The notes beneath the pieces are model-generated. The model saw nothing but the letters and a program-made list of their open reading frames with translations, was not told the DNA's origin and made no database searches. Shown in pieces: positions 244 through 10,275 of a stretch of DNA of 64,000 bases (its first letter is position 1; the number at the start of each line of letters is the position of its first letter). Made by a program: the position numbers and the translations under genes. Source of the stretch: Desulfuromusa kysingii (GTDB lineage: Bacteria > Desulfobacterota > Desulfuromonadia > Desulfuromonadales > Geopsychrobacteraceae); NCBI RefSeq assembly GCF_900107645.1, contig NZ_FNQN01000004.1, positions 1-64,000 on the forward strand. The letters are read 5' to 3'.

Positions 244-1626
244 TCAGAAAAGCGATGCAATATAAGCAAAGAGTCCCGACTCTTTAACCTTGGCATAAAG
301 CACAATAGCGACCGCCAATGGTGTAATGTAACGAATCATAAAATGCCAGAGAGAGTAAACCCATGCCGGGCTAGCTGCCAGCATCTCTTTTTTATCCTGC
401 TCATTTTTCCAAAACCATCCGACGTAGATCGAAATGAGCAACCCCGAAATGGGGAGCATATAATTGGAAGCAACAAGATCGATGGAATCGAAAAAAGCCC
501 TATCCCCCAGTGGTGTCCAGCTTCCGAGCATGTTGTATGAGAGCGCTGACGGAATACCGACGATAAAGCAGAGGATTGCCAGAGTTGTCGTCGCCGCCTT
601 ACGGTTCCAGCCTCTTTCATCAATAAGATAAGCCACCTGTGCTTCCATCAGGGAAATGGTGCTCGTCAATGCAGCAAAGGCAATCAGGAGAAAAAAGAGA
701 ATGGCAAGAAAATAGCCACCGGGAATTTTGGAGAAAACAATCGGAATGGTCTTGAAAACCAATCCAGGGCCAGCCGCAGGCTGCATGCCGACGGCAAAAA
801 CAACAGAAAAGATAGCGAGACCGGCGATCAAGGCAATTGCGGTATCGAGCAATGCAACACGCAGGCTGGCACCGACGATATTTGATCCCTTGCTGAGGTA
901 AGAGCCATAGGTCACAATGATCGCCATCCCAAGCGATAGCGTATAAAAAGAGTGTCCCATAGCTTCGAGAACGGAAACCGGGGTCAATTTGCTAAAATCA
1001 GGGTAAAACATGAAGTGCAGAGATTCAGCCGCCCCAGCACTAAGCATCCCGTTGATAAACAATAACAGCAACAGACCAAAAAGAATCGGCATCAAAATTT
1101 TACTCCAGCGCTCGATACCTTTATGGACTCCACCAATGACAATTCCCAGACTTAAAGCAATGAAGGCAAAGTGACAAATAACCTGTCGGGTTCCGTCACC
1201 AATCAGGCCACCGAACATCCCCTCAATCGCTTCTGGGGATTGTCCAACAAAGGCCCCCTGCAAGGCACGCCAGACATACTCAAGGGTCCAGCCAGCAACA
1301 ACAGAATAATAGGACAAAATGATAAAGGCAGCAGCGACGCTGAACCAGCCGGCAAGTCTCCAGGGAGAACGTTTTCCTTCAAGGAAGGTAAAGGCACCGA
1401 CGGCATCTTTCTGGGTGTGAGCACCAATCATCAGCTCTGAAATCATGATCGGCAAGCCGACAATAGCGATACAAAACAGATAAACCAAGACAAAGGCGCC
1501 ACCACCATTTTGCCCCGCAATGTAAGGAAATTTCCAAATATTACCAAGTCCAACAGCGCTCCCTGCAGCTGCCAGAATAAAACCGATCCGCGTCGCCCAT
1601 TGCCCACGCGGTTGTACGTTGTTCAT
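244..1626 (-). CDS. Neurotransmitter:sodium symporter (SNF) family transporter
   Basis: Inner-membrane Na+-coupled symporter of the NSS/SNF family (LeuT fold), importing a small neutral solute, most often an amino acid. The substrate cannot be read from the sequence. The 460-residue product has the family length and about 11-12 hydrophobic segments. The N-terminal signature GSAVGLGNIWKFPY lies at about residues 22-35 and is followed by GQNGGGAF; these unwound TM1 residues bind Na+ and substrate in LeuT. The ATG at 1626 is preceded by AGAAAGGAAGC, a good ribosome-binding site. The gene stands alone between two copies of the dispersed repeat. A promoter-like sequence and a terminator-like hairpin lie in its leader, so attenuation is possible. 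Family assignment is firm. Confidence 0.95.
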   Translation of the reverse strand: MNNVQPRGQWATRIGFILAAAGSAVGLGNIWKFPYIAGQNGGGAFVLVYLFCIAIVGLPIMISELMIGAHTQKDAVGAFTFLEGKRSPWRLAGWFSVAAAFIILSYYSVVAGWTLEYVWRALQGAFVGQSPEAIEGMFGGLIGDGTRQVICHFAFIALSLGIVIGGVHKGIERWSKILMPILFGLLLLLFINGMLSAGAAESLHFMFYPDFSKLTPVSVLEAMGHSFYTLSLGMAIIVTYGSYLSKGSNIVGASLRVALLDTAIALIAGLAIFSVVFAVGMQPAAGPGLVFKTIPIVFSKIPGGYFLAILFFLLIAFAALTSTISLMEAQVAYLIDERGWNRKAATTTLAILCFIVGIPSALSYNMLGSWTPLGDRAFFDSIDLVASNYMLPISGLLISIYVGWFWKNEQDKKEMLAASPAWVYSLWHFMIRYITPLAVAIVLYAKVKESGLFAYIASLF

Positions 1627-1725
1627 GGTGCTTCCTTTCTTCTGTTCAGAGGTTCAATTTTCTTGTTGTTACAATCATTCAACGGGTTAATAGTGACACA
1701 GTGATAAAACTCAGGCCGCAAAAAA

Positions 1726-1760
1726 GGGGAGATAGTCTCCTCGTGCAAGACTGTCTCCCC
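1726..1760 (-). terminator. Intrinsic terminator-like hairpin in the leader of the SNF transporter
   Basis: On the minus strand GGGGAGACAGTCT pairs with AGACTATCTCCCC (13 bp including one G-U) and is followed at once by TTTTTT, the form of a rho-independent terminator. It lies about 100 nt upstream of the transporter start and just downstream of the promoter-like sequence at 1780-1808. It may be an attenuator rather than the end of another gene, since the nearest upstream minus-strand gene, hisI, ends almost 900 bp away. Confidence 0.6.
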
Positions 1761-1779
1761 CTGAAATACATGATGTGAA

Positions 1780-1808
1780 ACAATACAACTCAAAAGCGGT
1801 AGGGTCAA
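1780..1808 (-). promoter_or_regulatory. Probable sigma-70 promoter of the SNF transporter
   Basis: Minus strand: TTGACC (1803-1808), 17-bp spacer, TATTGT (1780-1785). The predicted start near 1773 would place the 1726-1760 hairpin at the very beginning of the transcript. Confidence 0.45.
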
Positions 1809-1866
1809 TTATAGAATTGTTTTCAAGGTAAGCATGATGGGGAACAGAAGTTTTTTGTCGTCAATT

Positions 1867-2075
1867 CCCGTGTGACGCAGCCGAAATGGAATAGCTGATT
1901 TGAGAAACAGAGCGGCAAATGTCTGAGGGCTTCAGCCCGAGTTTTTGCCGCTCCTCAAAGCAGCTGTGGAATGGAGGGTACCCGCAGGGCAAGGAGTTCA
2001 GGTGCCTTTTTTTGCTGACTTTTTTGTGGCACGACAAAAAAGCCAGGCGTCGGGCGGGGCCGCAACCCCGCGACC
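1867..2075. repeat. Dispersed ~209-bp repeat, copy B
   Basis: Second direct copy. Its hairpin is at 2015-2046 (CTGACTTTTTTGT, loop ggcacg, ACAAAAAAGCCAG). Compared with copy C the third base pair has switched from C-G to G-C, so both sides changed together. Similarity to copy C continues into the flanks (GTCAATT before, AGAACCGGC after), so the full unit is somewhat longer than 209 bp. Short frames across it are present only because they track the repeat. Confidence 0.85.
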
Positions 2076-2130
2076 TTAAGGGGTATTATTTAAGAATCTA
2101 AGAAGAACCGGCGGGTCTCGTCCCGCCAGA

Positions 2131-2310
2131 CGAGTGACTTTTCTATCACGACATAGAAAAGGCACCAAAAGAGGTCGCCCCAATACCAGCGCCTGCCAAG
2201 GCAGGTTCCTTCCGCTACGCAAACCAGCGATGCGCTCGCAAAACTCGGGGGTTTCACCCCCTCAAACATTCCTCGCTTATCTCATCGCTGTTTTGCTCCG
2301 CTCCAGCGCG
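2131..2310. repeat. Diverged inverted copy of the dispersed repeat (copy D)
   Basis: Read as given, this stretch resembles the reverse complement of copies A-C in the same order of blocks: a hairpin (CTTTTCTAT, loop cacgac, ATAGAAAAG at 2138-2161), GGCACC, a CAGGTTCCTTCC-like block, then AAAACTCGGG and CCCTCAAACATT. The hairpin stem sequence is almost wholly different from that of A-C although the structure remains. Edges are approximate. Confidence 0.5.
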
Positions 2311-2345
2311 GGCATCAGGGGGGAAATGCACTTTGGTAGTCAATT

Positions 2346-2553
2346 CCCGTGTGACACAGCCGGAATGGAACAGCTGATTTGAGAAGCAGAGCGGCAAATG
2401 TCTGAGGGCGACAGCCCGAGTTTTGCCGCTCTTCAAAGCAGCTGAGGAATGGAGGGAACCCATAGGGCAAGGAGCTCGGGTGCCTTTTTCTGCTCACTCT
2501 TTTGTGGCATGACAAAAGAGTGAGGCGTCGAGCGGGGTCGCAACCCCGCGACC
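2346..2553. repeat. Dispersed ~209-bp repeat, copy C
   Basis: Third direct copy, with the most perfect hairpin: 13 bp at 2493-2505 and 2512-2524 around loop ggcatg. It lies between copy D and the end of hisI. Together with B and D it fills the whole 1.0-kb interval from the SNF leader to hisI, where no gene is credible. Confidence 0.85.
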
Positions 2554-2635
2554 TTAGAGGTTAGTTCTAGCGATCCAAGAGAACCGGCAGGGTTCGTCTC
2601 ATCAAACGAGAGTCAAAACACAAACTTAATGCAAA

Positions 2636-3031
2636 TCACACCATCTGCAGTTTTTTACTCTCCAAATCAATCTTGCGATAAAAACAGGTCTCACGGGTTT
2701 TTCCAGTTTCAGGATCTTTAGTGTGGCAGGAACCGCCACCTTGGGGAATAACTCGGTAAATAATCGCATCCTGATCACAATCGAGCAAAACTTCAACAAT
2801 CTTGAGAAAATCCCCGGAAGTTTCCCCCTTGGTCCAGAGTGCGTTGCGTGAAGTCGACCAGAAGGTTGCCATCCTCTTTGACAACGAGGCCTCCAGTGCC
2901 AGCTCATTGACATAAGCCACCATCAAAATCCTGCCGTCAGCGACATCCTGAACCACGGCTGGTATCAGTCCACCCCGCTTTGCAAAATCAATCAGCAACT
3001 CTGTCCCCTCTTCCAACTCTTTGTTCGCCAT
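2636..3031 (-). CDS. hisI: Phosphoribosyl-AMP cyclohydrolase
   Basis: Cytoplasmic enzyme of histidine biosynthesis that opens the adenine ring of phosphoribosyl-AMP (third step). The 131-residue protein is the monofunctional form, without the HisE pyrophosphohydrolase domain. Visible family motifs are MVAYVNEL, FWSTSRNALWTKGETSG, the Mg-binding DCDQDAI, and the zinc cysteines in GGGSCHTK and ETCFYR. The start is the ATG of MANKELEE at 3031, with GGAGAG six bases before it; a longer frame would need an upstream TTG. It lies 178 bp downstream of hcp on the same strand but after a terminator, so it probably has its own transcript. No other his gene is nearby. Confidence 0.95.
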   Translation of the reverse strand: MANKELEEGTELLIDFAKRGGLIPAVVQDVADGRILMVAYVNELALEASLSKRMATFWSTSRNALWTKGETSGDFLKIVEVLLDCDQDAIIYRVIPQGGGSCHTKDPETGKTRETCFYRKIDLESKKLQMV

Positions 3032-3146
3032 TCTTCTCTCCAATATCTATTTACGCTTAAAAACGTTTGTTGTCGCCGTTCAGATGTGCGGCATTTTGCC
3101 AACTGGAGGGAGAAACATCAATAGCAGTTTTATCTTCGCCAAATAA

Positions 3147-3180
3147 AAAGGGCGCAAGACCCTAAGATCTTCCGCCCTTT
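3147..3180 (-). terminator. Rho-independent terminator of hcp
   Basis: Minus strand: AAAGGGCG pairs with CGCCCTTT, with a shorter inner AAGA/TCTT stem, followed by a T-rich tract. It begins about 30 bp after the hcp stop. Confidence 0.75.
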
Positions 3181-3209
3181 GTTTATTTGAACAGGATATA
3201 ACCGAATGA

Positions 3210-4838
3210 TTAATTTCCAGCCATGATCGCAGCAACATCTTCTTTGACGTCACCAGTCGCCTTAATATCGAACTTCTCGACCAGCACTTTGGCAACATTT
3301 GGAGACAAGAATGCTGGCAATGTTGGCCCCAGGCGGATGTGTTTGACACCCAGTGCGAGGAGTGCGAGCAGAACGATCACCGCTTTTTGCTCATACCAGG
3401 CGATATCATAGGAAATCGGCAGGTCGTTGATATCATCCAGACCGAAAACTTCCTTCAATTGCAGCGCAATATATGCGAGTGAATAGGAATCGTTACATTG
3501 ACCGGCATCAAGTACCCGTGGAATTCCACCAATATCGCCGAGATCCAGCTTGTTATAACGGAACTTGGCACAACCAGCTGTAAGGATAACGGTATCATCA
3601 GGGAGCTCTTTGGCAACGTCAGTAAAGTAATTCCGGCTGGCTTGACGACCATCACAACCGCCCATGACGACGAAGCGTTTCAGCGCACCGGACTTCACCG
3701 CGTCGACCACTTTATCAGCTAGCGCCATCACCTGAGCATGAGCGAAACCACCAACGATTTCACCTGTTTCAATTTCGACTGGGGGTTCACAGGTTTTAGC
3801 CTTCTCAATAATTTGCGAGAAATCCTTGTGGCCACCTTCAGGACGATCAGCAATATGGATAGCTCCTGGCCAACCAGCCATACCAGTCGTGTAGAAACGA
3901 TCTTTGTAAGCTTCTTTAACCGGGGTAATACAGTTGGTTGTCATCAGAATCGGGCCATTAAATGAAGCAAATTCTTTATCTTGATGCCACCATGAATCAC
4001 CGTAGTTACCAACAAAATGCTCATATTTTTTAAATTCTGGATAATAGTTAGCGGGCAACATTTCACAATGAGTATAAACGTCAACACCAGTGCCTTCAGT
4101 CTGCTTGAGCAGCTCTTCCATATCTTTCAGATCATGTCCGGAGATAAGGATTCCGGGATTTTTACCAACGCCAATATTCACTTTGGTAATTTCAGGATTA
4201 CCATAGGTTGTCGTGTTAGCTTCATCCAGCAATGCCATCGCAGTGACAGCGGTTTCCCCACATTTCATCACCATGCCGACCATTTCATCAACACTCAGAT
4301 CCTGTGTTGTTGACACCAGAGCATCCACCATAAAGTCATAAATTTCGCTCTTCTCAAAACCAAGCATCGCCGCATGATCGGTATAGGCAGCCATCCCCTT
4401 CAGACCGTAAATCAGCAATTCACGTAAGGAGCGAACATCTTCGTTAGGTTGTGACAAGACACCAACTTCTGCAGCTTTAGCAGCAAAATCAGCTTCAGCG
4501 CCATTCCAATTGGCGACATCGGCATCACTACTGAAACCAATCGCAGCTTTCAACCCGTCACGTTTGGCAATGGTGGCCTTAATCAATTCAACAAATCGGG
4601 CATTATCAAAGTTAGCATTGGTAATCGTTGCAAACAGTCCCTGGGAAATAAACAAACCGATCGATTTGTCCAATTTACCCTGCTTTTTAGCTTCGTCAGC
4701 AACAACGGCCAACCCTTTCAGGGTAAAAACCAAAAGATCCTGCAAATTAGCGGTATCCTCTTTTTTTCCACAGACGCCGGCAATAGTGCAGCCAGTATTT
4801 TTAGCCGTTTCCTGACACTGAAAACAAAACATACTCAT
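3210..4838 (-). CDS. hcp: Hybrid-cluster protein (hydroxylamine reductase / prismane protein)
   Basis: Cytoplasmic iron-sulfur protein; family members act as high-affinity NO reductases, reduce hydroxylamine in vitro, and are part of the nitrosative stress response. The N-terminal cysteines are C-X2-C-X8-C-X5-C (residues 5, 8, 17, 23), the class I pattern of strict anaerobes holding a [4Fe-4S] cluster. Ligands of the hybrid Fe-S-O cluster are all visible: SGHDLKD (His), THCEMLPA (Glu), [17 protein letters not shown] and [10 protein letters not shown] (Cys), and WYEQKAV (Glu). The 542-residue length is normal. The ATG at 4838 follows AGGAGT by nine bases. Transcribed divergently from the DUF1858/ABC cluster, with an FNR-like site upstream. 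No hcr-type reductase gene is adjacent. Confidence 0.97.
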
Positions 4839-4918
4839 GTTGGTTGACTCCTTTAGTTTGGGTGATTGGGACGCAATTTCTTTGTGCTGGAAAATGCCAC
4901 AACCGCGACATTAAAAAA

Positions 4919-4932
4919 TTGACGCAAATCAA
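4919..4932 (-). promoter_or_regulatory. FNR/CRP-family site upstream of hcp
   Basis: Read toward hcp the site is TTGATTTGCGTCAA, one base from the perfect FNR/DNR/HcpR-type palindrome TTGAT-N4-ATCAA. Its centre is 87 bp before the hcp start. If it acts at -41.5, transcription would start near 4884; the -10 there (CATTTT) is weak, as expected for an activated promoter. Confidence 0.65.
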
Positions 4933-5083
4933 AAAACAACAAAAATAGTCATGTTTCTTTCAATTGCCATTGAATTTCGAGTATAACAGGCAAACAAAAA
5001 GATGCCAGCATCCCCACTATTTAAATCAACAACCAGACAAAATAATCCCCGCACTCAATTGTTGATGATTTTAGTTATATTTA

Positions 5084-5097
5084 TTGATTTGCATCAA
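5084..5097 (+). promoter_or_regulatory. FNR/CRP-family site upstream of the Hcp-associated cluster
   Basis: TTGATTTGCATCAA, a perfect TTGAT-N4-ATCAA palindrome. A TATGCT -10 lies at 5120-5125, which gives a start near 5132, exactly 41.5 bp from the centre of the site: the geometry of a class II activated promoter. It matches the hcp site in 13 of 14 bases, in the same orientation relative to its gene. Confidence 0.72.
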
Positions 5098-5170
5098 TTT
5101 ATCTTGCGGCACTTTCAGTTATGCTCCGTTCCAGATAATCAATCGACACTCAAAACATGGAGAGACAATA

Positions 5171-6403
5171 ATGACAACGGCCCTACTGAATAAAGATATG
5201 ACGGTTAAGGACGTTCTTGATCGCTGGCCTGAAACCTTGGAAGTGTTTGTTGCCAATGGCTTTGCAAATTTTCGTGATGAGAAACAACGCAACGCTGTCG
5301 GTGCTTTTCTGAAACTGGAACGGGCCGCGCAGACGAAAAAGTATGATCTGGATAATTTTCTGAATCTGTTGCAAGCCAGAATCGATGAGGAGTTGCATCA
5401 GGTTGATGTCACTATGAAGACAACTGAGAAAGCTGACAGTCAGGTCAACGTCTCTGGCCTGCTCCCCTGCCCGGTACGGTTACCACTCCTGGAGGGGTTT
5501 GACGCTTTTATAGAGAAGTATACTGCAGAAACCGGCAATAGTGTCAGCTATAAGTTGGAAGCAGCATCGGTCGGTGCAAGCTGGATCGAAGAGAATATTC
5601 AGGGGATTGAAAACGTCAACGACCTCCCAGATATCTTCCTCTCTGCCGGATTTGAAACCTTCTTTGATCAGAAAACCATCGGTCGGTTCAAAGATCAGAA
5701 GGTCTTTACCGATATCACCGCGACAGCGGTTAATCCTGACTTTGCGGGCATTGATATTAAAGATCCGAAACAGGACTATTCAATTATTGCTGCGGTTCCT
5801 GCGGTATTTATGGTCAATCATGATGTCCTTGGTGATCTACCGATTCCACGCCGCTGGTCTGACTTATTGAAACCTGAATATCAAGAAAAAGTTGCCCTAC
5901 CTGTGGGTGATTTCGACCTGTTTAACGCAATTCTTCTTGCTATTCATAAAGAACATGGGGATGCCGGGGTCAAAAAACTCGGCCGCTGTATGCTCAAGTC
6001 GATGCACCCATCACAGATGGTCAAGAATGCGCAGCGGGTTGCAGAAGAAAAACCCCTGATCACGATCATGCCTTACTTTTTCACTAAAATGGCACGTATG
6101 GTGAAGAGTTTAGAGATCATCTGGCCCGAAGATGGAGCGGTGGTCAGTCCTATTTTTATGCTGACCAAGCGTGATTGTCTAAATAAAGTCAGGCCCATTG
6201 CTGAATTTTTGTCCAGTAAAGCGGTTGGAGAAATTCTGGCACAAAAAGGGTTATTCCCCTCACTGCACCCTGATGTTGACAATCAACTCTCTGGCCAACA
6301 CCCATGGAAGTGGATTGGCTGGGACTACATCTACCAAAATGACATTGGTGCCTTGATTCAGCGCACGACACAAATTTTTGAAGCTTCAATGAACGAACTA
6401 TAA
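5171..6403 (+). CDS. DUF1858 domain fused to a solute-binding-like domain, no signal peptide
   Basis: First gene of a four-gene cluster. Residues about 8-75 (MTVKDVLDRWPETLEVFVANG and on) resemble DUF1858/TIGR03980, the hybrid-cluster-protein-associated redox disulfide domain, but the usual CxxC position reads GFANF with no cysteine. Residues about 95-400 look like a type 2 periplasmic binding protein of the ferric-iron/thiamine/polyamine class (LPCPVRLPLLEGFDAFIEKY, YSIIAAVPAVFMVNHDVLGD, PRRWSDLLKPEYQEKVALP). There is no signal peptide, lipobox or membrane segment, so a cytoplasmic location is likely, which is unusual for this fold. Start chosen at 5171, after GGAGAGAC; an upstream in-frame ATG would overlap the FNR-like site and promoter. 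Role unknown; a ligand- or metal-carrying part of a maturation system is an inference. Confidence 0.85.
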   Translation: MTTALLNKDMTVKDVLDRWPETLEVFVANGFANFRDEKQRNAVGAFLKLERAAQTKKYDLDNFLNLLQARIDEELHQVDVTMKTTEKADSQVNVSGLLPCPVRLPLLEGFDAFIEKYTAETGNSVSYKLEAASVGASWIEENIQGIENVNDLPDIFLSAGFETFFDQKTIGRFKDQKVFTDITATAVNPDFAGIDIKDPKQDYSIIAAVPAVFMVNHDVLGDLPIPRRWSDLLKPEYQEKVALPVGDFDLFNAILLAIHKEHGDAGVKKLGRCMLKSMHPSQMVKNAQRVAEEKPLITIMPYFFTKMARMVKSLEIIWPEDGAVVSPIFMLTKRDCLNKVRPIAEFLSSKAVGEILAQKGLFPSLHPDVDNQLSGQHPWKWIGWDYIYQNDIGALIQRTTQIFEASMNEL

Positions 6404-6413
6404 AGGAATTGAC

Positions 6414-7112
6414 ATGCGTTTTTTAACCATATCCGGTCCCCCATCATCGGGAAAGACATCTGTTATTTTAAGAGTGATTGAAGCGTTGCAAACGCGGCAG
6501 CAGAAGATTGGTGTGGTCAAGTTTGACTGCCTGCTGACAGACGATGACAAGCTCTACGCCAAGAAAGGGGTGCTGGTCAAAAAAGGACTTTCCGGCGCAC
6601 TCTGCCCTGATCACTATTTTGTCAGCAATATCGAATCCTGCGTCACCTGGGGACACGAAAATGGCTGCGAATATCTGATCAGTGAAAGTGCTGGACTCTG
6701 TAATCGTTGTTCGCCACATATCAAAGAGATTACCGCTGTCTGTGTGATCGACAATCTCAGCGGCATCAATACCCCGAAAAAAATTGGGCCGATGTTAAAG
6801 TCAGCCGATATTGTTGTTATTACCAAAGGGGATATCGTCTCCCAAGCAGAACGGGAAGTTTTTGCCTCGCGGGTGAGACAGGTCAACCCCGGAGCCATTA
6901 TTATGAATGTTAACGGAATCACCGGACAGGGCGCCTTTGAGCTGACCAGCCTGTTTGAGGATGCTTCAGATATTGAAACGTTGAAGGGTAAAGTCTTACG
7001 TTTTTCCATGCCTTCAGCGCTCTGCTCCTACTGTCTGGGGGAAACCCGGATCGGTGAAGAGCATCAGACAGGGAACATCCGCAAGATGGATCTCCAGGAA
7101 GGATCAGCCTGA
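6414..7112 (+). CDS. HypB/UreG/CobW-like P-loop GTPase
   Basis: 232-residue cytoplasmic P-loop NTPase. Walker A is GPPSSGKTS (residues 8-16). ESAGLCNRCSPH at about 93-104 carries a CxxC with a following His, a likely metal site. VVITKGDIV (about 136-144) resembles the base-recognition strand of HypB and UreG, and VNGITGQG follows. A C-terminal CSYCLGETRIG segment gives a second CxxC. HypB, UreG and CobW relatives load metals into enzymes or insert metallocofactors. Starts 10 bp after the previous stop with AAAGGA before the ATG, and its stop overlaps the next start by one base, so the genes are almost certainly co-transcribed. The target metalloprotein is unknown; Hcp is the obvious candidate from context. 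Confidence 0.85.
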   Translation: MRFLTISGPPSSGKTSVILRVIEALQTRQQKIGVVKFDCLLTDDDKLYAKKGVLVKKGLSGALCPDHYFVSNIESCVTWGHENGCEYLISESAGLCNRCSPHIKEITAVCVIDNLSGINTPKKIGPMLKSADIVVITKGDIVSQAEREVFASRVRQVNPGAIIMNVNGITGQGAFELTSLFEDASDIETLKGKVLRFSMPSALCSYCLGETRIGEEHQTGNIRKMDLQEGSA

Positions 7113-8110
7113 TGAAAGCCACAACATTATTGTCTCAACCGCTGACAGAAACCTTGGTTGAACATCCCTATATCGAAGATTTTATGACCTCCTTTGGTCT
7201 GGTGATCAAACCTGACAGCAACAGCTTACAACATTATCTTGATCACCTGGATCCTGATGCATTGGAGGATCTTGGCATCAGTAGCGAACAACTACGACAA
7301 AGTCTTGACAGTTTTCTTGCTGGCATGTTGGCGCTATCAGACCCGATGGATAAAGTTGAATCGCTGACAATTGTTGGCGGGGTTGATAAATCGGGAAAAG
7401 CGGAAAATCTGCAATTGACTTTGAAACCTGGCGAAGTCATCTGTATCGTCGGTCCGACTGGATCAGGGAAAAGCCGCCTGCTAGCTGACATTGAGTGGGT
7501 TGCCCAAGGCGACACTCCGACCAAAAGAAAAATTCTCATCAACGATCAGGTGCCTGATAGTAAATGGCGGTTTTCGACCGAGCATAAGTTGGTAGCCCAA
7601 TTGTCACAGAATATGAACTTTGTGATGGATCTGTCAGCGGAAGAATTTATCCGCATGCATGCAGAGAGCCGCTTGGTCACTGACCCGGAAGCAAAAGTTG
7701 CCCAGATCCTGCTACAGGCCAACGAACTGGCCGGAGAGACATTTGCTCCTGATACGCCGGTGACATCTTTAAGCGGCGGGCAATCCCGTGCATTGATGAT
7801 TGCCGATATGGCGATTCTGAGCAAATCACCGATTGCGTTGATTGATGAAATCGAGAACGCCGGAATTGATCGTAAAAAAGCCCTGGAGCTGCTCGTTCAA
7901 GAAGAAAAAATCATCCTCATGGCAACTCACGATCCAATTCTTGCCTTGATGGGCGATCGACGGGTGGTGATTAAAAACGGTGGTATTGAGAAGATTATTG
8001 AGTCGAGTGAAGCAGAACGCAAAAACCTGGTCACTTTGGAGGCCCTCGACAACAAACTACTCGCGCTAAGAAATAGAATCCGAACCGGGGATACCCTGGA
8101 AAATCTCTAA
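7112..8110 (+). CDS. Stand-alone ABC ATPase with an N-terminal DUF1858-like domain
   Basis: 332-residue soluble ATPase with all ABC motifs: Walker A GPTGSGKS (about 113-120), signature LSGGQSR (about 222-228), Walker B ALIDEIENAG (about 244-253) and H-loop ATHD. No permease gene is nearby and the protein has no membrane span, so it is probably not a transporter subunit. The first ~75 residues (LTETLVEHPYIEDFMTSFGL and on) resemble the DUF1858-type helical domain of the first gene in the cluster, again without cysteines, so two proteins share an N-terminal module. Start at 7112 overlaps the GTPase stop (TGATG). A power-stroke or remodelling ATPase in cofactor delivery is an inference. Confidence 0.85.
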   Translation: MKATTLLSQPLTETLVEHPYIEDFMTSFGLVIKPDSNSLQHYLDHLDPDALEDLGISSEQLRQSLDSFLAGMLALSDPMDKVESLTIVGGVDKSGKAENLQLTLKPGEVICIVGPTGSGKSRLLADIEWVAQGDTPTKRKILINDQVPDSKWRFSTEHKLVAQLSQNMNFVMDLSAEEFIRMHAESRLVTDPEAKVAQILLQANELAGETFAPDTPVTSLSGGQSRALMIADMAILSKSPIALIDEIENAGIDRKKALELLVQEEKIILMATHDPILALMGDRRVVIKNGGIEKIIESSEAERKNLVTLEALDNKLLALRNRIRTGDTLENL

Positions 8111-8131
8111 ACCCACAAAAGGGAGACTGAA

Positions 8132-8374
8132 ATGCACGACGGCTGTAGTGGAAGTTTTGGCAATGGTGAGCAAATTGTCAACAAATTAAGGCAGATGGGA
8201 TTCAGCAGTTATGCTATGCCGATACCCATTGAGATTAAATGTACCAGCTGTGAGACAACTTTCACCATGGAAACAATGGAAGACAAGTGTGACAGTTGCG
8301 GCATGACCTATGGTGTCACACCCTGCCATGCAACAGATCCCGGAAGCATCCAACCGGCAGGTATCAACTATTAA
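8132..8374 (+). CDS. Small zinc-ribbon protein of the Hcp-associated cluster
   Basis: 80-residue protein with two CxxC knuckles, CTSC at about 38-41 and CDSC at about 53-56, forming a probable zinc ribbon. A third conserved-looking tail, YGVTPCHATDP, has one more Cys-His pair, and another Cys lies at residue 5. Last gene of the cluster, 21 bp after the ATPase, with GGGAGA before its ATG. Small proteins with a similar ...GVTPC...DP..IQ.AGI tail occur, from memory, in other anaerobes. It may bind metal or nucleic acid, or be a partner of the GTPase; no function is shown. Confidence 0.8.
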   Translation: MHDGCSGSFGNGEQIVNKLRQMGFSSYAMPIPIEIKCTSCETTFTMETMEDKCDSCGMTYGVTPCHATDPGSIQPAGINY

Positions 8375-8381
8375 GTCAATC

Positions 8382-8407
8382 GCGGGCGAACCGCTTCGTT
8401 CGCCCGC
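8382..8407. terminator. Hairpin between converging genes
   Basis: Perfect 10-bp stem GCGGGCGAAC / GTTCGCCCGC with a six-base loop, directly after the zinc-ribbon gene and before the convergent PilZ gene. No clear T-tract on either side, so it may act as a weak terminator or as a 3-prime-end protector. Confidence 0.5.
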
Positions 8408-8441
8408 CTTGAACCACAATCGGGGCTACGACTCAAACTTT

Positions 8442-9092
8442 TCACAACAGCTCCTCGCTGGCAGAGGTAGAAATGTATTGCCATAACACGGCCCGATCAG
8501 CACTCTTCAGCGGGTAAAACTTAATCCCGACGTTATGTTTGGCATGCTGAGCCTCTTTAGCTTTTTCAGTCCAGCAAACCTGTCCGGTGACAAAAATAAC
8601 ACTTTCATCTCCCGGCAGAGAAAATTCCAGCGCGATCTCCTCCCGAACCTTTGGTAACGGGTTTGATCCCGGCACTTCCACCCGTGCACCCTCCATACTT
8701 AAGTTATAAAAGTTACAGCTGCAGGCGTTTTTGCCGTAACAAACTTCGACCCGAAAAGGGGTTGAAAACTGTAATCGAAAGTTGTCCCGAGCTCCGGTCA
8801 TCATCCCTTGCAGAATCGTCAAAAACTGCTTGATGCTCTTCTTGCTTTCAGCCGAGCTACGACCATTTTCCGCCATCGAATTATTCTCGTCAATCACTTC
8901 ATCGAGGAGTTTTCGATAGCGAAAAAAACGTTTCAGCAGATCCTGCCGGTCGAAAGTAAAACCGTTGGATGAAACCAGGACATTATTAACGGCAACTTCA
9001 GCGCCGCAGTGTTCGCATACAATTGTCTGAATTTCTGCCAACAGCGCAGATTTAATATATTTACTGCATTTTGGACATTTCATTATCAACAT
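8442..9092 (-). CDS. Zinc-ribbon and PilZ domain protein
   Basis: 216-residue cytoplasmic protein. The N-terminus has a zinc ribbon (CPKC and CEHC about 17 residues apart, near residues 6-27), followed by a charged helical region. The C-terminal ~110 residues look like a PilZ domain: RDNFRLQFSTPFRVEV gives an R-X3-R-like basic start, then SMEGARVEV (the usual D/NxSxxG motif) and VGIKFYPL. PilZ domains bind cyclic di-GMP. The neighbouring HD-GYP regulator degrades this messenger, so a shared signalling role is plausible. Start at 9092 is chosen because ATG there follows GAGG by six bases; a GTG 36 bp upstream has no ribosome-binding site. The RxxxR motif is imperfect, so c-di-GMP binding is not certain. 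Confidence 0.8.
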   Translation of the reverse strand: MLIMKCPKCSKYIKSALLAEIQTIVCEHCGAEVAVNNVLVSSNGFTFDRQDLLKRFFRYRKLLDEVIDENNSMAENGRSSAESKKSIKQFLTILQGMMTGARDNFRLQFSTPFRVEVCYGKNACSCNFYNLSMEGARVEVPGSNPLPKVREEIALEFSLPGDESVIFVTGQVCWTEKAKEAQHAKHNVGIKFYPLKSADRAVLWQYISTSASEELL

Positions 9093-9156
9093 AACTGAGC
9101 CTCGTATTTGATCTTTAAGACTGTCCACGCTGTCGGCACGAAACGGTCATAACCTA

Positions 9157-10275
9157 TTAATTATGATAGGTTTCTTCATCGAGATAACGTTCTTTAATTT
9201 CAAGAATTTCTGCCAAATTTTCAATGAACAGGTCAACCATGACAGGTTCGAAATGTTTACCCGATTCCGCTTTCAGCAAGGCGATAGTCTTTTCCACCGA
9301 CCACGCTTTCTTATAGGGTCGTTCTGAGGTTAACGCATCAAAAACATCACTGATTGCCGCGATTCTGGCAGAAATAGGGATCTCCTCACCAGAAATTCCC
9401 CGCGGATATCCGCTCCCATCCCACTTTTCATGATGGTAAAGAGCGGTTTCACGAGCAAGAACAATCAACTTGGAATCATTATCACCAATGATCTTGGCCC
9501 CTATTTCTGGATGATGTTGCATGACTTTCCACTCTTCTGGAGAGAGCTTCCCAGGCTTAAGCAAAATACTGTCCGGGATACCAATCTTACCGACATCATG
9601 CATGGTACTGGCATAAAGCAACTGTTCGGCATAATCTTTTCCCAAGCCACGCTTAAGTGCCAAAAGACTGCAAGTGTGACTCATCCGATTGACATGGGCT
9701 CCGGTTTCATTATCGCGTAGTTCGCCGGCGGCTCCCAGACGCTTGACGATCTCAAACTGGGTCGCAAGGATTTCACGCGTCCGTTTACGTACCTCTTGTT
9801 CCAGAATATCAGCACGTACGACCTGACGAGTATAATACAAACGTGTCTGCAGGGTATTTTCGATCCGTAACAGGACTTCCCAATCTTCAAAGGGTTTGGT
9901 AATAAAGTCCTTGGCCCCAGCTTCCAACGCCTGCTGACGGGTTTCTTGATCGGTTTGAGCGGTCAGGACAATGACGGGTAGAAATTCGTCCCGAGTGACC
10001 TCTTTAAGTTGTTGTAAGACCTCAATCCCTGACATTTTCGGCATACGGATATCGAGCAGAAGCAAATCAAAGGTATGTTCCCGATACAAAGAAAGGACCT
10101 GGGTTGGATCCGTGGTAGAGTAAATATTCTCGTATTCTTCTTCGTCTAAAACCGCCTCAAGGAGAGCGACATTTGATGGGTTGTCGTCAACAATCAAAAT
10201 CTTTGCATCGTGTATATCTGCGAGTGCAGAGCCCACAGAGAGATCGGTTAAATCAAGAGCCATGTTCATGTTCAA
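9157..10275 (-). CDS. Response regulator with HD-GYP phosphodiesterase domain
   Basis: 372-residue cytoplasmic regulator. Residues about 24-140 form a receiver domain: KILIVDDNPSN, the phosphoacceptor in LLLLDIRMPKMSG, and KPFEDWEV. After a coiled linker comes an HD-GYP domain (about 175-355) with ETGAHVNRMSH, the metal-binding HD in MHDVGKIGIPD, and HHEKWDGSGYPRG carrying the GYP motif, so it should hydrolyse cyclic di-GMP. Its start overlaps the stop of the hybrid kinase by 4 bp, so the two are co-expressed and the kinase is the likely phosphodonor. RpfG-like architecture. Start ATG near the overlap; MNMNMA gives alternative ATGs two and four codons in. Confidence 0.93.
   Translation of the reverse strand: MNMNMALDLTDLSVGSALADIHDAKILIVDDNPSNVALLEAVLDEEEYENIYSTTDPTQVLSLYREHTFDLLLLDIRMPKMSGIEVLQQLKEVTRDEFLPVIVLTAQTDQETRQQALEAGAKDFITKPFEDWEVLLRIENTLQTRLYYTRQVVRADILEQEVRKRTREILATQFEIVKRLGAAGELRDNETGAHVNRMSHTCSLLALKRGLGKDYAEQLLYASTMHDVGKIGIPDSILLKPGKLSPEEWKVMQHHPEIGAKIIGDNDSKLIVLARETALYHHEKWDGSGYPRGISGEEIPISARIAAISDVFDALTSERPYKKAWSVEKTIALLKAESGKHFEPVMVDLFIENLAEILEIKERYLDEETYHN

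Follow-up and report, generated by a model that had tools for sequence, protein, structure and literature searches.

The two near-identical palindromes that lie between hcp and a divergent four-gene metal-handling cassette in Desulfuromusa kysingii are most probably operators of HcpR (subgroup HcpR1), each centred at −41.5 in a class II promoter, through which hcp and the cassette would be induced together upon exposure to NO or nitrite; we put the probability of this reading at roughly 84%. What is established at the level of sequence, and supports the proposal, are the sites themselves, how they are conserved and oriented, the spacing to the −10 of either gene, and the way in which the motifs correspond across phyla. 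In what follows, the window is the whole 64,000-nucleotide stretch of DNA that was analysed; it belongs to a genome assembly of 3.74 Mb in 27 contigs, in which hcp is located on contig C11.

Palindromes and promoter geometry between hcp and the cassette

The hcp gene (3210..4838, minus strand) encodes an NO-defence enzyme, a hybrid cluster protein (Hcp) of 542 aa that matches the Prismane family and hydroxylamine reductase models, and its ATG at 4838 is separated by 332 bp from the ATG of the cassette at 5171 on the plus strand. Within this intergenic region, the predicted HcpR-type operator facing hcp, TTGATTTGCGTCAA (4919..4932, minus strand, read 4932-4919), and the one facing the cassette, TTGATTTGCATCAA (5084..5097, plus strand), are identical at 13 of 14 positions when each is read toward its own gene, as the first-pass annotation of this DNA had noticed. 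Both predictions draw on a pattern search of the genome, on shuffles and on conservation in 17 of 17 genomes. The distances of 87 and 80 bp to the start codons given in that annotation hold when measured from the palindrome centres (87.5 bp for hcp, 80.5 bp for the cassette), while the near edges of the sites are 80 and 73 bp from the respective ATG. Exact copies of TTGATTTGCRTCAA number two in the whole genome by pattern search, both in this intergenic region. In the regulon scan with the 14-mer that had been suggested as a check on co-regulation, done by pattern search, the six one-mismatch copies came without recognisable nitrogen-oxide genes. No Rfam elements were found within positions 1500-9200 of the window. 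Positions 1853-2610 hold two copies of a non-coding block of approximately 280 bp, 77-91% identical and 478 bp apart, upstream of a transporter gene (244-1626).

Two short motifs may resemble each other by chance, and the degenerate pattern TTGAY-N4-RTCAA has 64 sites in this genome; among the roughly 50 that were listed, nearly all of the placed ones are intragenic. When the 332-bp region was shuffled 20,000 times at first order, however, the mean count of this pattern was 0.0086, two or more sites arose with a probability of 5e-5, and a pair alike in at least 13 of 14 positions never appeared (0/20,000). Footprinting extended to 17 genomes with a readable divergent hcp/cassette pair, the genome of the window included, whose intergenic regions range in length from 189 to 410 bp. 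Every one of these regions contains exactly two perfect TTGAY-N4-RTCAA sites, one per gene (34/34 sites), at 75-110 bp from the start of hcp and 51-105 bp from that of the cassette. When the 34 sites are aligned in the direction of their genes, TTGA, the T at position 7 and TCAA are invariant, and the consensus, which leads into a T-rich run, reads TTGA(T/C)(C/T)T(G/A)N(G/A)TCAA; TTGAC half-sites are common among the relatives. At both genes the asymmetric core points the same way with respect to the promoter. This conservation refutes a chance resemblance, to which, given also the shuffles and the conserved −10 spacing, we assign a negligible probability.

The class II spacing that had been claimed for the cassette site and its TATGCT element is present: the predicted −10 (5120..5125, plus strand) is located 22 nt past the operator, which is centred at −41.5 with respect to the start predicted near 5132. 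The earlier claim was confined to the cassette, but the putative hcp promoter has the same geometry, its predicted −10, CATTTT following TGTGG (4891..4896, minus strand, read 4896-4891), being located 22 nt past the facing operator, with a start predicted near 4884. Because each start is placed 7 nt after a −10 that lies at 22 nt, the operator centre would fall at −41.5, the class II arrangement, at both genes. In most relatives the cassette −10 is TATACT, at 22 nt, and the mean match to TATAAT at this spacing is 4.1/6 versus 0.6-2.7 at every other spacing between 10 and 35. For hcp the best −10 spacing is also 22 (mean match 2.8/6), with mostly CATTTT, CATTGT or CACTGT at this position and a conserved TG(T)GG-like stretch preceding it across relatives. 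E. coli FNR and CRP provide the model for class II promoters activated by CRP/FNR proteins. The two predicted promoters resemble such promoters in having an operator centred at −41.5 of the predicted start, a −10 element and no good −35; they differ from the E. coli model in that their starts are predicted from sequence and in that the hcp −10 (CATTTT) is poor, with TG before it.

A candidate HcpR and its relation to FNR and DNR

The first-pass annotation had assigned both sites to one CRP/FNR-family factor, whether FNR, DNR or HcpR. A shared factor is strongly supported, since both sites and their spacing are conserved and the motif switches across phyla at both genes, as described below; among the three names, the evidence favours HcpR, of the HcpR1 subgroup that is close to DNR, and disfavours FNR. 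A search of the genome with HTH_Crp_2 found four CRP/FNR proteins and one MarR-like match. Only one of the four, encoded at G000:C10:67068-67751, shows S-E-x-x-S-R in its recognition helix (LGTTSETLSRTFRKL), as would suit TTGAC/T sites, with a residue 180 of the permitted kind (Ser or Pro) followed by Glu181. The other three carry Arg180, which is reported to go with G3 of TGTGA sites (Rodionov 2005, PMC1274295). The helix of the candidate is kept in its orthologues throughout the order, and its only cysteines are residues 13, 93 and 119, the iron-sulfur cysteines of FNR being absent. Its nearest solved relative is the NO sensor DNR of Pseudomonas (3dkw, E 3.6e-26). We infer that this protein is the regulator of the two promoters; its putative assignment as HcpR follows from the motif and from the helix rule.

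That the sites belong to the oxygen-sensing FNR, and merely mark genes used without oxygen, is very unlikely. The cassette site matches the FNR consensus TTGAT-N4-ATCAA at 10 of 10 positions and the hcp site at 9 of 10, the latter fitting this consensus as well as that of HcpR. However, the FNR pattern of four iron-sulfur cysteines occurs in none of the four CRP/FNR proteins found, a count that covers the HTH_Crp_2 matches and depends on the sensitivity of that model; moreover, many relatives have TTGAC half-sites, and the HcpR2 box stands at the same genes in Bacteroidota.

Published HcpR1 proteins of Geobacter, Desulfuromonas and Desulfotalea have Ser or Pro at position 180 and TTGAC-N4-GTCAA sites (PMC1274295), and this box is found upstream of hcp in Desulfuromonas and Geobacter (PMC1274295; PMC545781 Table 10). 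The two sites of the window resemble TTTTGAttTgtaTCAAtT and tcTTGAtCTgGaTCAAAT, which are among the HcpR sites published for hcp of Desulfuromonas (PMC545781 Table 10). This agreement in target and motif with HcpR1 in the same bacterial order (PMC1274295, PMC545781) stands against a DNR-like or other CRP/FNR regulator from outside the HcpR lineage, which would have a similar NO-response function under another name and which we regard as quite improbable. Such a regulator would be consistent with DNR being the nearest solved relative of the candidate, and with the placement of HcpR1 and DNR together in the published tree (Rodionov 2005, PMC1274295). It would also fit the lack of a close orthologue of the candidate in 5 of the 17 footprinted genomes (G012, G020, G021, G029 and G031), which are mostly incomplete assemblies and three of which yielded no CRP/FNR protein over the cut-off either.

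The preferred arrangement, with HcpR as the regulator, resembles the published HcpR1 regulon (PMC545781, PMC1274295) in the TTGAC-N4-GTCAA-type box before hcp and in the Ser180-Glu181 helix of the regulator. It differs in that hcpR is frequently, though not obligatorily, beside hcp in that regulon, whereas the candidate here is apart from it, on contig C10 rather than C11, and in that the sites favour TTGAT half-sites around a directed YTR core. In addition, the cassette is absent from those published gene lists that were consulted (PMC545781, PMC1274295). The region upstream of the candidate hcpR itself yielded no operator. According to the mechanism that we propose, an HcpR dimer would bind each site at −41.5 and would activate, rather than repress, the class II promoters of hcp (start near 4884) and of the cassette (start near 5132), so that hcp and the four divergent genes would be co-induced when NO or nitrite is sensed, the NO signal being taken from the published work on HcpR.

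Elsewhere in the genome, a third site, TTGATATCAATCAA (L105, G000:C17:80204-80217), is located 200 bp upstream of a gene for a YccM/NapH-like polyferredoxin and has TATGGT at 22 nt. It looked promising because of this class II spacing and because yccM is among the genes named by Rodionov 2004 (PMC545781), but the site is absent upstream of the closest orthologues and present in only 5 of 26 overall, and the YccM-like gene was set aside as a weak candidate for regulon membership. In one relative (L089, G015:C39:8000-13500), the cassette has a YccM-like gene as its divergent neighbour, each of the two being faced by one operator, and hcp lies farther off with a site of its own.

The cassette and its boxes across phyla

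Scanning of the genome collection with the first cassette protein yielded 80 loci, where it is accompanied by the GTPase in 77, the ATPase in 76 and the zinc protein in 68, some loci lying on short contigs. The TTGAY-N4-RTCAA pattern is present upstream of cassette gene 1 at 34 of the 80 loci (Desulfuromonadales, Deferribacterota, Acidobacteriota and Desulfobulbus), and GTAAC-N4-GTTAC, the HcpR2 box (Rodionov 2005, PMC1274295), at another 18 (Marinifilum, Labilibaculum and Ancylomarina), approximately 61 bp from the start. Background in the same 830 kb amounts to 4 sites of the HcpR1 type and 6 of the HcpR2 type, so that about 0.001 of each would be expected per upstream region. No perfect HcpR1 or HcpR2 box was found before the cassette in the loci of Spirochaetota, Cloacimonadota and Fermentibacteria.

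In Desulfuromonadales hcp and the cassette share one intergenic region, and their co-regulation could stem from location, with the cassette having no functional tie to Hcp. We consider this unlikely, because the same box stands at both genes in phyla where they do not occur within 6 kb of each other. Thus no hcp lies within 6 kb of the cassette in the Bacteroidota genomes, and still GTAAC-N4-GTTAC is found at hcp in 6 of 6 tested, and two Ancylomarina genomes of 4.1-4.4 Mb have just three such sites, two of which are at hcp and the cassette. The hcp genes of Deferribacterota, also not within 6 kb of the cassette, carry TTGAY-N4-RTCAA. The two units are separate in Pelovirga terrestris as well. 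Linkage of the two units recurs in other layouts, e.g. in Cloacimonadota and Spirochaetota, where hcp follows the cassette, and an Hcp of the same clade was found in 17 of 17 cassette genomes tested. Judged by their boxes, the cassette and hcp both use whichever HcpR dialect their host does, and this agreement, which we consider our strongest evidence, speaks for HcpR as the regulator and for selection on the pairing.

The Bacteroidota arrangement is like the HcpR2 regulon published for Bacteroides, Clostridia and Thermotogales (PMC1274295) in having GTAAC-N4-GTTAC before hcp, and extends it by placing this box before the cassette as well; in most Bacteroides the published regulon comprises hcp alone (PMC1274295), whereas Marinifilum, Labilibaculum and Ancylomarina would have a second target unit. 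Control of hcp by HcpR was published in 2004-2005 (PMC545781, PMC1274295), and the proposed membership of the cassette in the HcpR regulon is new as far as the literature searched shows.

In Spirochaetota the cassette is immediately preceded by a gene (L243:2076-2471, L254:5531-5932, L216:5552-5962) for an Rrf2-family regulator with several cysteines. The Rrf2 family includes the iron-sulfur and NO sensors IscR and NsrR, which suggests that the cassette of Spirochaetota may be controlled by another iron-sulfur or NO sensor. In Cloacimonadota the cassette stands directly between a gene for a small protein (L204:5626-5964, L232:885-1223; Cupin_2 match in L204) on its upstream side and hcp on its downstream side.

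The Hcp clade and a possible role of the cassette

In many phyla the cassette is retained as a block, and it accompanies one clade of Hcp. The Hcp tree has one fully supported split (100/100), with all 30 grouped Hcps of cassette genomes, which were picked as best matches to the window's Hcp, on the side of the latter and 11 other Hcps on the opposite side. Left out of the grouping were L195, where the cassette adjoins an Hcp from the opposite side of the split, and L072, in which no cassette was detected. The Hcps of the 17 cassette genomes tested are 64-87% identical to that of the window, as compared to 45-51% for most Hcps of cassette-less relatives. Among 60 relatives, which are not independent of each other and some of whose genomes are incomplete, the 2x2 table of Hcp type by cassette reads 19/3/2/36.

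All four cassette genes are on the plus strand. The first (5171..6403), whose start codon agrees with those of relatives, encodes a 410-aa protein in which DUF1858 is fused to an SBP_bac_6 domain of predicted ferric-binding-protein fold; inspection revealed no signal peptide. Its AlphaFold2 model (pLDDT 84.8, pTM 0.74) has ferric-binding proteins as its closest structural matches (1y4t, TM 0.69 by target length, E 2.5e-14; also FutA and FbpA). The second (6414..7112) encodes a CobW/HypB/UreG-like GTPase of 232 aa, which is 70-97% identical even between phyla and whose scores with the HypB and UreG models fall far short of the cut-offs. The third (7112..8110) encodes an ABC-type ATPase of 332 aa, the block containing no permease gene, and the fourth (8132..8374) a small cysteine-rich protein of 80 aa that weakly resembles the zinc part of HypA, below curated cut-offs. 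In combining a HypB/UreG-related GTPase with a weakly HypA-like zinc protein, the cassette is like the accessory systems for nickel insertion (HypA/HypB, UreG, CooC), as it is in having for its partner Hcp, a relative of CO dehydrogenase. Unlike these systems, it adds a cytoplasmic protein of ferric-binding fold and an ABC ATPase without a permease.

We tentatively suggest, while giving it somewhat less than even odds, that the cassette serves, under HcpR control, as dedicated machinery for delivering iron to the hybrid [4Fe-2S-2O] cluster of one Hcp clade or for repairing this cluster. Iron would come from the cytoplasmic ferric-binding-type protein, the HypB/UreG-like GTPase would dock and gate together with the HypA-like zinc protein, and the ABC ATPase would drive the step. 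The operators common to hcp and the cassette, in two motif dialects across phyla, tie a deletable four-gene unit to the question of how the unusual iron-sulfur-oxygen cluster of Hcp is assembled, and they point to a probable regulator and to the inducing conditions under which the cassette may be studied. If true, this role would make the cassette, to our knowledge, the first system to be described for the maturation of hybrid cluster proteins.
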